The notes beneath the pieces are model-generated. The model worked only from the letters and a program-made list of their open reading frames with translations. It was not told the DNA's origin and did no database searches. From NCBI GenBank assembly GCA_014859685.1, contig JACUTU010000001.1, positions 397,416 to 461,415 on the forward strand: a stretch of DNA of 64,000 bases, in the 5' to 3' direction. Origin of the DNA: Sulfurospirillum sp. (GTDB lineage Bacteria > Campylobacterota > Campylobacteria > Campylobacterales > Sulfurospirillaceae). The position numbers and the translations under genes were made by a program. Below are positions 23,363-26,845 of the stretch, in pieces. Within the stretch, counting starts at the first letter, position 1, and every line of letters starts with the position of its first letter.

Positions 23363-23863
23363 ATGATAGAAAGTTATAGAAATGCAACCATAGAAGATTT
23401 AGCGGCGATAGTACATATCTATAACGCTGCAATAGAAGATGGTATTTCAACCGCAGATTCGTACAAAGTAAGTATTGATTCTAAGATAGATTGGTTTAGG
23501 GCGCATGATAGAGAAAATAGACCGATTTTAGTCAAAGAATATCAGGGTAAAATCATCGCTTGGCTTTCGTTGCAACCTTTTTACCCACATTTAGCATATG
23601 AACATAGTGCGAGAATTAACATCTATATCGACCGCAATTTTCGGGGTAAAAAACTCGGACAGCAATTTTTGCAAGAGATTTTAAATCAGGCTAAAAAGTT
23701 TCACATAGAAAACTTTTTAGCACTTATCTTTACCGATAATGAAACAAGTTTGAAGCTTTTTAAAAAATTGGGTTTTAAAGAGTGGGGCAAGTTTCCAGAA
23801 ATTGCAAATATTCAAGGATCGCAAAAAGATTTGCTTATCCTTGGTTATAAAGTAGAAAAATGA
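23363..23863 (+). CDS. GNAT N-acetyltransferase, phosphinothricin-acetyltransferase-like
   Basis: A 166-residue acetyl-CoA-dependent acetyltransferase. Family patterns include IYNAAIEDGISTAD near residue 15, the acetyl-CoA loop RNFRGKKLGQQF near 95 and a final KLFKKLGFKEWG. It resembles the Bar/Pat subgroup that acetylates phosphinothricin-like or methionine-sulfone-like amino acids; the true substrate is unknown. It overlaps the HAD gene by four bases (ATGA), starting the four-gene operon that ends with the fused transferase. Confidence 0.85.
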   Translation: MIESYRNATIEDLAAIVHIYNAAIEDGISTADSYKVSIDSKIDWFRAHDRENRPILVKEYQGKIIAWLSLQPFYPHLAYEHSARINIYIDRNFRGKKLGQQFLQEILNQAKKFHIENFLALIFTDNETSLKLFKKLGFKEWGKFPEIANIQGSQKDLLILGYKVEK

Positions 23864-24513
23864 AAACCTTATCTTTTCAATCAATAATTTTTGATATGGA
23901 TGGAACATTGCTTGATTCAAGTTTTGCTATGTTGCAAAGCGTCAATCATGTGCGTGGCACTTTAGGGTTGGAGCCTGTGAGTAAAGAGTTTTTAGAATAC
24001 TCCATCAACGAACCAGACTGTGATTTGCCGATGCTTTTTTATGGCACAAAAGAGTATGTCCCGCAGCACAAAGAAGCATTTAAGCAACACTATCTCACTT
24101 TCGCGAATGATTATATTAAGGTATACGATGGCGTGCATGAACTTTTGGAATATCTGCAAGCCTTACATGTAAACATATCTATAGCAACCAATGCGAGTGA
24201 TTTTTTTGCCAAAAATATGCTTGAACATAAAAATCTTTTGCATTATTTTTCACACATAGTGGGTGCAAATTGTGTAAAAAATCCAAAACCGAATCCAGAT
24301 ATGATCCACCATATCGCTACAAATACACAAATTCCGCTCTCGCATACGCTGCTTGTGGGTGATAGTATCAAGGATGAGCTTGCTGCAAAAAATGCTGGTA
24401 TTGCATTTTGTTTTGCAAATTGGGGTTATGGAGTTGGAAGTGCGCAGAGTTCAAAGTATAGCAATATCAAAGAATTGCTCAATTTTTTAGAGCAACATAC
24501 GCAAAGGCAATAA
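23860..24513 (+). CDS. HAD-family phosphatase, Gph-like
   Basis: A 217-residue haloacid-dehalogenase hydrolase. Motif I is DMDGTLLDSS (nucleophile Asp near residue 11), motif II ATNAS, and motifs III/IV KNPKPNPDM and VGDSIKDELAAKNAG. The cap is of the small helical type as in phosphoglycolate phosphatase. It overlaps the genes on both sides (ATGA and TAATG), which ties it to the kinase and transferases downstream; removal of phosphate from an intermediate of that pathway is a reasonable inference. Confidence 0.85.
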   Translation: MKTLSFQSIIFDMDGTLLDSSFAMLQSVNHVRGTLGLEPVSKEFLEYSINEPDCDLPMLFYGTKEYVPQHKEAFKQHYLTFANDYIKVYDGVHELLEYLQALHVNISIATNASDFFAKNMLEHKNLLHYFSHIVGANCVKNPKPNPDMIHHIATNTQIPLSHTLLVGDSIKDELAAKNAGIAFCFANWGYGVGSAQSSKYSNIKELLNFLEQHTQRQ

Positions 24514-25514
24514 TGAAAAATTTTAATTTTGATGTCTCATCCCTTATGGATATAAGCAAATGTGAAGTTACAGAGATAGGCGATGGAAACTTAAACTTTG
24601 TTTTCAAACTCAGCGATGGAACGCACACATACGCACTCAAACATGCAAAACCGTATCTGAAGATTTTGGGTGAAGATTTTGCACTCACGCCCCAAAGAAT
24701 CATAGCGGAGATGAATTCTATGGAGTATTTTTACTCACTGTTACCGCAATACATCCCGCAAATCTATCTGAAAAATGAAACAGAGTATTTTTTTGTGATG
24801 CAATACCTTGATGGTTTTACAAGTTTGCGAGAAGATCCGCAAAGTGGTATTTATGAAAAACTTGGCGAAGTTTTATATACACTAGCAACCAATCAACCAA
24901 CAAAAGAAGCTTTTTATGCATGCGATGAACTCAAAGAGATCACAAAAAATTATGTATTTGAGTATGCTTTCATAAAAGATCATCCAGCCCTAAGCATAGC
25001 AGATTACGCTCTTCAAAAGCAGTTTAGCAAAGCTTTTTTAACCAATAAAGAACGCCTAAAAGAGATCTTTTTACATGCAAAAACTTCCTTAATTCATGGC
25101 GATTTTCATACAGATTCCGTGATGTGCAAGGGTGATGAGGTTGCTATCATTGATAGTGAATTTTCTCTTTTTAGTGAAATTTCTTTTGATATAGGCAATA
25201 TCTTAGCACATACTATTTTTAGCAGTATCGCTCGCAATGATAGGCTTTATAGAGAAAAATTCCTATTACTTTTTTCAAAATTAGAAGCTTTGGAAAATTT
25301 TTCACAGATTTTAAAAAACAGTATAGGTTTTTGTGCTATTGAAATGGCTCGCAGACTCTATGTACCAGCAAAATCCAAAGATCTTGAGAGTATAAAAATT
25401 ATGCAAGACAAAAAAGATGCCTATGCTTTGAGTTTTGCACTAGCTGATGAATTAGGAGCTAATGATTATACTAATGTCACTTCATTTATTAAAAGGCTTG
25501 ATAATTACCTATGA
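24513..25514 (+). CDS. 5-methylthioribose kinase-like phosphotransferase
   Basis: A 333-residue small-molecule kinase. The opening GDGNLNFVFKL, then ALKHAKPYLKILGEDFALT, the catalytic LIHGDFHTDSV and metal-binding IDSEFSLFSEISFDIGN follow S-methyl-5-thioribose kinase (MtnK) closely. MtnK phosphorylates C1 of a 5-substituted ribose. No other methionine-salvage gene (mtnA, mtnB, mtnN) is present, and the partners are a HAD phosphatase and sugar-transferase-like domains. The substrate may therefore be another 5-deoxy-5-substituted ribose. Overlaps: TAATG upstream, ATGA downstream. Confidence 0.8.
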   Translation: MKNFNFDVSSLMDISKCEVTEIGDGNLNFVFKLSDGTHTYALKHAKPYLKILGEDFALTPQRIIAEMNSMEYFYSLLPQYIPQIYLKNETEYFFVMQYLDGFTSLREDPQSGIYEKLGEVLYTLATNQPTKEAFYACDELKEITKNYVFEYAFIKDHPALSIADYALQKQFSKAFLTNKERLKEIFLHAKTSLIHGDFHTDSVMCKGDEVAIIDSEFSLFSEISFDIGNILAHTIFSSIARNDRLYREKFLLLFSKLEALENFSQILKNSIGFCAIEMARRLYVPAKSKDLESIKIMQDKKDAYALSFALADELGANDYTNVTSFIKRLDNYL

Positions 25515-26845
25515 AGCAAGCGCTTATCTGTTTTACTAAAGAACCCGTTATGGGCAAGGTTAAAACAAGACTTGCTCGAAGTATTGGGGATTCAAAAGCT
25601 TTTGAAATCTATAAATTACTTTTGGAAAATATTCTCACAATGCAACTCAAGACCAGTATAAAAAAATTTGTATCGGTTTATCCCTACACAAAAGAGTATG
25701 CCACACACTTTGAGTCATGGGAATGTTTCACACAAATTGGAATGAGTTTTGGTGCAAGAATGGCACATGCGTTTGAATATGTTTTTGCACAAGGCTTTGA
25801 ACGAGTTGTCCTTATAGGCGGCGATATTGCACTTATAGATGCGGCCATCATTGACGATGCTTTTGCGTCATTGGTTAGCAGTGATGCTATATTGGGTCAA
25901 ACAATCGATGGTGGGTATTATCTTATTGGTTTTACTAAAAAAAGTTTCACAACAAAACCTTTTTTGATAGATTTTAGTCATGATGTTTTCGCACAAACTC
26001 TTACAGCTTTAAACCCCTTACATGTAAAGCTAGGGAAAACTCTTTTTGATATCGATGAACTCGCAGATGTGCGAGCATTGCATACTTTGAACCTCCAAAC
26101 TCAGCTCAGTTTAGGAATTAAAAAAATCTTGCAAGATTTGCCAAAAATCAGTGTCATCATACCTGTGTATTTTGAAAAAGACAATATCACAAAAACGATT
26201 TTACATCTGCGAAATAACGCCAAAGATAATGATTTTGAAATCATTCTTTGCGATACACCAGAAAAAACAACTATAGATAGTGTTGCAGACTTACATGTAA
26301 GAACCTGTCTTGCTCCAAAAGCTAGTCGTTCACAGCAACTCAATACAGGATCTGCACACGCTTGTGGTGAAATCTTACTTTTTGTACATGCTGATACTTT
26401 GTTGCCAAAAGATTGGGATGCTTTTATCTTAAAACTTTACGAGGAAGAAAGAGATTTTGCGGCTGCTTTTAAACTTGGTATCAAAACTGAAAATCTTTTT
26501 ATCAAATTGATCGCATTTTTTGCAAATGTGCGAGTTTTTTTCACAAATACCCCCTATGGCGATCAAGCACAAAGTTTCAGTGCCTCAGTGTTTCACACAA
26601 TCGCAGGCTACGATGAGATAGAACTTATGGAAGATATTGCCATCATTAAAAAGCTACATGTAAGAAAAAAAAGAGTTCATATCTTTGATGCAAAAGTTTT
26701 TACTTCAGATCGTAGATGGAAAAAAGAGGGTATTTTATACACAACTTTTCGAAACAGACTTCTAAGCATACTCTACTTTTTCGGAGTATCACCAAAGAAA
26801 CTCAAAAGATACTATAAATTTTCTCAAAAAGTACCCTTGTCGTAG
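25511..26845 (+). CDS. Fused transferase: TIGR04282-like plus TIGR04283-like
   Basis: A 444-residue protein of two GT-A-type domains. Residues 1-200 start MKQALICFTKEPVMGKVKTRLA and contain LIGGDIALID and GQTIDGGYYLIG, matching the CofC/MobA-like TIGR04282 (DUF2064) family. Residues 205-444 start KISVIIPVYFEKDNI and contain RSQQLNTGSAHACGEILLF with VHADTLLP, matching the TIGR04283 glycosyltransferase family. These two families are named in databases as transferases 1 and 2 linked to a radical SAM protein later tied to arsenosugar synthesis. No such radical SAM gene is in the window. Last gene of the operon. Confidence 0.85.
   Translation: MKQALICFTKEPVMGKVKTRLARSIGDSKAFEIYKLLLENILTMQLKTSIKKFVSVYPYTKEYATHFESWECFTQIGMSFGARMAHAFEYVFAQGFERVVLIGGDIALIDAAIIDDAFASLVSSDAILGQTIDGGYYLIGFTKKSFTTKPFLIDFSHDVFAQTLTALNPLHVKLGKTLFDIDELADVRALHTLNLQTQLSLGIKKILQDLPKISVIIPVYFEKDNITKTILHLRNNAKDNDFEIILCDTPEKTTIDSVADLHVRTCLAPKASRSQQLNTGSAHACGEILLFVHADTLLPKDWDAFILKLYEEERDFAAAFKLGIKTENLFIKLIAFFANVRVFFTNTPYGDQAQSFSASVFHTIAGYDEIELMEDIAIIKKLHVRKKRVHIFDAKVFTSDRRWKKEGILYTTFRNRLLSILYFFGVSPKKLKRYYKFSQKVPLS

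Follow-up and report, generated by a model that had tools for sequence, protein, structure and literature searches.

We propose that a kinase gene and a fused transferase gene, located at positions 24513-26845 of a 64,000-nucleotide stretch of a Sulfurospirillum genome (GenBank assembly GCA_014859685.1, contig JACUTU010000001.1, forward-strand positions 397,416 to 461,415; hereafter the window), supply the middle and late steps of arsenosugar synthesis. It is very probable that the pair belongs to arsenic metabolism, and we consider it likely, with clearly less assurance, that the scheme as a whole is broadly correct. The literature that we searched assigns enzymes only to the first arsenosugar steps (ArsM and ArsS), not to the conversion of the adenosyl intermediate into a glycoside, and our search of it, which did not cover a 2019 paper on the ArsS pathway, found no kinase described for making arsenosugars. 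Our proposal provides a specific order of enzymes with a ribose 1-phosphate intermediate, and suggests substrates for TIGR04282 and TIGR04283. The features concerned are as follows.

24513-25514, + strand: kinase of the APH fold resembling 5-methylthioribose (MTR) kinases, proposed C1 kinase of 5-deoxy-5-dimethylarsinoyl-ribose (from the TIGR01767 match, solved relatives, residues and clade).
25511-26845, + strand: whole fused TIGR04282-TIGR04283 gene; the same fusion adjoins the kinase gene in 15 relatives.
25523-26071, + strand: TIGR04282 half, proposed nucleotidyltransferase acting on ribose 1-phosphate (136 bits, cut-off 134).
26147-26815, + strand: TIGR04283 half, proposed family-2 glycosyltransferase (204.8 bits, cut-off 182).

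In the proposed route, a fusion of ArsS and ArsM would methylate arsenite and join the 5'-deoxyadenosyl group of S-adenosylmethionine (SAM) to dimethylarsenic. Methylation by ArsM and adenosylation by ArsS are known for other proteins from work cited in two papers (PMC12159101, PMC8552651); this genome contributes the gene only. The single 5'-methylthioadenosine/S-adenosylhomocysteine (MTA/SAH) nucleosidase would then strip adenine from the arsenical nucleoside, and the kinase would turn the resulting 5-deoxy-5-dimethylarsinoyl-ribose into its alpha-1-phosphate by phosphorylating C1. From this compound, the TIGR04282 half would make a nucleoside-diphosphate sugar, which the TIGR04283 half would transfer with inversion to an acceptor. 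A family-2 glycosyltransferase that inverts on a nucleotide-activated alpha-sugar would yield a beta-riboside. The alpha anomer is the form bound by MTR kinase (PMC2194712), and a kinase acting on this anomer followed by an inverting transferase would therefore lead to a beta-riboside, in line with natural arsenosugars, which are beta-D-ribofuranosides (PMC10456119).

The genes needed for the early steps are found elsewhere in the genome, whose assembly amounts to 2.1 Mb over 23 contigs, with a listed completeness of 100%. Contig C12 encodes a 663-residue protein in which ArsS (TIGR04167, 360 bits, cut-off 300) is fused to an arsenite methyltransferase. The methyltransferase part aligns over its full length to solved ArsM proteins (E about 1e-89 to 1e-91); it lies under the NCBIfam ArsM cut-offs and retains the three arsenic-binding cysteines of CmArsM, whose roles have been described (PMC12608789). 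Nearby genes encode a rhodanese lipoprotein, two VTT membrane proteins, a dicluster protein and a pyridine-nucleotide-disulphide oxidoreductase. There is one copy of the MTA/SAH nucleosidase gene, and no purine nucleoside phosphorylase (PNP) was detected in the genome. A preliminary description of this DNA had proposed, as a check, a search for arsM, arsS or nucleosidase genes elsewhere in the genome, and the ArsS-ArsM fusion and the nucleosidase bear out that expectation.

The kinase scores 177 bits against the MTR kinase model TIGR01767, under its cut-off of 275, and its closest solved structures are the MTR kinases 2pyw and 2olc. In MTR kinase, the aspartate of the HGD motif, the phenylalanine after DxE and the first arginine of an RR pair bind ribose (PMC2194712). 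All three motifs are present in our kinase (D197; D214, E216 and F217; R280 and R281), and every ribose-binding and catalytic position is invariant across 16 divergent kinases, including this one, and 19 genuine MTR kinases. The cap over the 5-methylthio group is formed by W76, V184 and V370 in the Arabidopsis enzyme and W74, L180 and L345 in that of Bacillus (PMC2194712). We located the corresponding positions by alignment to the Bacillus MTR kinase chain and counting. They are Phe56, Tyr147 and Pro285 in all 16 divergent kinases, whereas the genuine kinases have Tyr/Trp/Phe/His, Phe/Leu and Leu/Ile/Val/Met, respectively; Phe56 occurs in three of the 19, and Tyr147 and Pro285 in none. The divergent kinases also form one side of a branch with support of 100/100, and their pocket signature makes the clade recognisable. 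As far as residues can tell, the pocket is what would be expected of a kinase of ribose with a different 5-substituent, although they do not identify the substituent itself.

A rival explanation would be an ordinary MTR or 5-deoxyribose kinase, used in methionine salvage or 5-deoxyribose disposal and lying beside the transferase by chance. The sequence does place the protein among the MTR kinases, and these accept a range of 5-substituents (PMC2194712, PMC6079011). However, the 16 genomes that carry the divergent kinase, the window's own among them, all lack mtnA, whereas it is present in all eight tested genomes with a genuine MTR kinase (>470 bits). Because 5-deoxyribose disposal uses the same kind of isomerase (PMC6079011), the absence of mtnA led us to reject both pathways; a complete methionine salvage pathway using this kinase had been named in the preliminary description as one of the findings that would overturn its proposal. 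Moreover, every carrier genome has the TIGR04282-TIGR04283 fusion beside the kinase, and the pocket residues are altered. We therefore regard an ordinary kinase as very unlikely. The protein is like MtnK in fold family (by sequence) and in its HGD, DxE-F and RR motifs, and unlike it in score, clade, cap residues and the lack of an accompanying mtnA. DrdK (PMC6079011) is likewise an MTR-kinase paralogue that acts on another 5-modified ribose, but its partners are an isomerase and an aldolase. Here the partner is instead a fusion of nucleotidyltransferase and glycosyltransferase, and our search yielded no isomerase of the mtnA type.

The distribution of these genes across the phylum points to a link between the pair and arsenic. 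The kinase and fused transferase are adjacent in all 16 genomes carrying the divergent kinase (the window's own and 15 relatives), and in the 15 relatives the pair lies near a gene for a protein of roughly 995 residues, with rhodanese, VTT and dicluster genes also nearby in most. This protein combines a radical SAM domain, an ArsM-like methyltransferase and DUF5714.

L047:8809-11796, + strand: fusion of radical SAM, ArsM-like and DUF5714 domains, roughly 995 residues; found in 14 further genomes (for example, L046:8348-11323).

The methyltransferase part of the 995-residue fusion retains the three arsenic-binding cysteines, and the radical SAM part shows kinship with ArsS in the domain core only (142 columns), without a match to the ArsS family. 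Among 249 genomes of the phylum, ArsS was found in 11 and the 995-residue fusion in 11 others, with no overlap, and the genomes with a TIGR04283 match of at least 180 bits are exactly these 22; the next match scores 109 bits. Within the family, 32 genomes were tested for both kinase and fusion. The kinase occurs in 16, of which 15 carry the fusion and one (the window's own) carries ArsS; the other 16 have neither the kinase nor the 995-residue fusion. Carriers span three genera, and the genus richest in them also has members lacking both genes. This pattern of co-occurrence suggests that the two radical-SAM-ArsM fusions are functionally equivalent and act upstream of the same kinase and transferases. 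Where ArsS is missing, the 995-residue fusion beside the pair is a possible second enzyme forming an arsenic-carbon bond. Occurrence of the operon in genomes with no plausible source of a 5-substituted ribose, which the preliminary description had also listed as contrary evidence, was not observed, given that the relatives lacking ArsS have the radical-SAM-ArsM fusion beside the kinase.

The same pattern bears on the identity of the sugar. A unit making a glycoside of some other 5-substituted ribose, such as 5-methylthioribose, 5-deoxyribose or a selenium analogue, would find its substrates at hand, as the nucleosidase encoded in every genome would release MTR and 5-deoxyribose; also, TIGR04282 and TIGR04283 are uncharacterised families named from context. 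However, the distribution of the unit mirrors that of ArsS or the ArsM fusion and not that of the nucleosidase, which is present in all 43 genomes examined, and the arsenic-binding cysteines are retained in both fusions. We judge a non-arsenic glycoside unlikely. Methylthio and dimethylarsenic had both been entertained as the substituent; tracking of arsenic genes by the kinase, together with the altered pocket, makes dimethylarsinoyl the likelier of the two.

In genome G208, which has ArsS and no mtnA, an MTR-type kinase (302 bits) is found beside TIGR04283. ArsS is here the C-terminal half of a 629-residue protein (L075:9605-11494, - strand), whose N-terminal 320 residues have no NCBIfam match and, judged by eye, resemble a phosphoesterase. 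We had considered this protein to be another ArsS-ArsM fusion, and rejected that assignment because ArsS is C-terminal to a region without family assignment. In genome G016, a second, stand-alone TIGR04283 protein (264 bits) is encoded at L084:8638-9333 (- strand), apart from the kinase locus. Rhodanese, VTT, dicluster and VTT genes, as at L032:3034-5834 (+ strand), are repeatedly found close to both kinds of arsenic radical-SAM gene.

The placement of the kinase at the ribose 1-phosphate step follows chiefly from the absence of PNP and the presence of the kinase. We scanned genome contigs for ArsS loci and obtained 80, none titled as belonging to the window's phylum. Neighbours within 7 kb of ArsS included TIGR04282-like genes in 42, TIGR04283-like genes in 24 and ArsM-like genes in 25 of these loci. 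PNP was found in 22 loci, and none of the 80 gave a match to the kinase models at E<=1. The PNP family of ArsS loci was found in none of 33 genomes of the window's phylum and in all five outside controls. Methionine salvage similarly has two alternatives, namely MTA phosphorylase, or nucleosidase plus MTR kinase (PMC2194712). By analogy, one-step phosphorolysis would give the same 5-substituted ribose 1-phosphate as nucleosidase and kinase give in two steps, and nucleosidase plus kinase would stand in for the PNP of many ArsS loci in other phyla.

Alternatively, the kinase might act elsewhere in arsenic metabolism, for instance with the acceptor or the completed glycoside as its substrate, and ribose 1-phosphate might be supplied by another enzyme. 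Many ArsS loci have no PNP or kinase nearby, so other sources may exist. This arrangement seems improbable to us in view of the absence of an ArsS-locus-type PNP from 33 genomes of the phylum and because the kinase retains the residues contacting O1, O2 and O3 in a free 5-substituted ribose.

Compared with the ArsM/ArsS arsenosugar pathway of Synechocystis, cited in PMC8552651 and PMC12159101, the genome studied here shares the ArsS and ArsM domains, and like ArsS loci of many phyla it has TIGR04282 and TIGR04283. It differs from the Synechocystis type in having ArsS and ArsM in one protein, an MTR-type kinase linked to the transferases and no PNP. A broader and more tentative reading, to which we give somewhat less than even weight, is that the phylum rebuilt arsenosugar synthesis at two steps, with nucleosidase and a repurposed MTR kinase replacing phosphorolysis and, in the relatives, the 995-residue fusion replacing ArsS. 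Under this two-step reading, the 995-residue fusion would be a second, separately evolved enzyme joining 5'-deoxyadenosyl to arsenic.

Several observations weigh against the proposed route. In this genome, the kinase-transferase pair and ArsS are on different contigs. The association of kinase with fusion in the family (Fisher test, 6e-8) rests on a co-occurrence count that is uncorrected for kinship. In the majority of ArsS loci from other phyla, no PNP or kinase lies nearby. Finally, ArsS loci in a different family of this phylum carry an APH-fold domain joined to TIGR04282, and in all eight examples the domain has the sequence NTE in place of the HGD motif.

L076-L083 (for example, L078:6145-7587, + strand): TIGR04282 fused to an APH-fold domain; eight ArsS loci from a different family of the phylum.

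This APH-fold domain is not MTR-kinase-like and gives a weak profile match, and from its sequence it may be an unusual or dead kinase. The occurrence of such a fusion in ArsS loci still counts as a parallel in favour of the proposed route, but the NTE motif led us to stop treating it as unequivocal evidence of a working kinase.

The fused transferase holds the genome's sole match to TIGR04282 and, at E<=1e-20, its sole match to TIGR04283. Its TIGR04282 half passes the cut-off narrowly and has a solved relative in 3cgx (E 4.6e-22); similarity to CofC is weak. Assignments of an MtnK-like kinase and a fused TIGR04282+TIGR04283 transferase in the preliminary description were upheld, with the kinase under the TIGR01767 cut-off and the fusion over both of its own.

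The pair forms the downstream part of four same-strand open reading frames (ORFs) at 23363-23863, 23860-24513, 24513-25514 and 25511-26845, whose coordinates bear out the previously noted overlaps of ATGA, TAATG and ATGA, in that order. The two upstream genes are as follows.

23363-23863, + strand: GNAT acetyltransferase, co-transcribed and probably a bystander; found in 28 of 60 relatives, many of them without the kinase.
23860-24513, + strand: HAD phosphatase, co-transcribed and probably a bystander; 3' of the GNAT gene in 19 of 20 loci, including kinase-less genomes.

The best match of the acetyltransferase is ArsN1a, whose cut-off it does not reach (114.7 bits, cut-off 170), and its score against ArsN1b (55.8 bits, cut-off 210) likewise places it outside the ArsN1 arsinothricin N-acetyltransferases. 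The phosphatase lies near phosphoglycolate phosphatase and falls under all of the specific (equivalog) cut-offs shown. The 20 acetyltransferase loci examined include the window's own, and only there does the kinase adjoin the GNAT-HAD pair; all four genes were seen together in this genome alone, and in relatives the two pairs are apart. In a genome of the same genus without a detected kinase, acetyltransferase, HAD and transglutaminase-like genes retain the same order. The GNAT-HAD pair is ancestral in the family, and the kinase-transferase pair thus sits in an otherwise older neighbourhood. The four-gene operon is composed of two modules, of which the kinase-transferase pair is the functional unit; the overlaps indicate that the genes are transcribed together, not that they work together. 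The GNAT-HAD pair, which is conserved without the kinase and located elsewhere in kinase-bearing relatives, probably has no role in the arsenosugar route, and we rejected both proteins as pathway members. Accordingly, of the four-gene route originally suggested, the idea of a kinase-transferase core is supported, whereas the four-gene unit was observed in this genome alone and the suggestion that the phosphatase finishes the aglycone has been dropped.

The gene order also recalls a cell-wall recycling system. In AmgK-MurU, an anomeric kinase of the APH fold is followed by a nucleotidyltransferase. A recycling pathway similar to AmgK-MurU-MupP, with an APH kinase, a nucleotidyltransferase and a HAD phosphatase acting on an amino sugar, would have its enzyme types in the order seen in the window, and the HAD protein gives a weak match to MupP (59.9 bits against a cut-off of 359). 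However, our kinase belongs to the MTR type and has the RR motif for ribose binding, the nucleotidyltransferase is of another family and carries a fused glycosyltransferase of the arsenosugar type, and the HAD gene is unlinked to the kinase in relatives. We rejected this highly improbable alternative on the grounds of kinase family and unlinked phosphatase.

Scans for promoters and terminators in the operon region gave results at chance level, and repeats within the operon were unremarkable. The G+C content of the kinase-transferase pair resembles that of flanking DNA. The window also encodes a XerH-type recombinase domain (PF18644), which points to Campylobacterota as the phylum. A palindrome, TTACATGTAA, has 14 copies in the window (for example, at 24163, 26018 and 26291), against 0.1 to 0.2 expected, and its core, TACATGTA, has 39. 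Several copies of the palindrome are intragenic; it is frequent in some relatives too, and the loci examined from others lack it.

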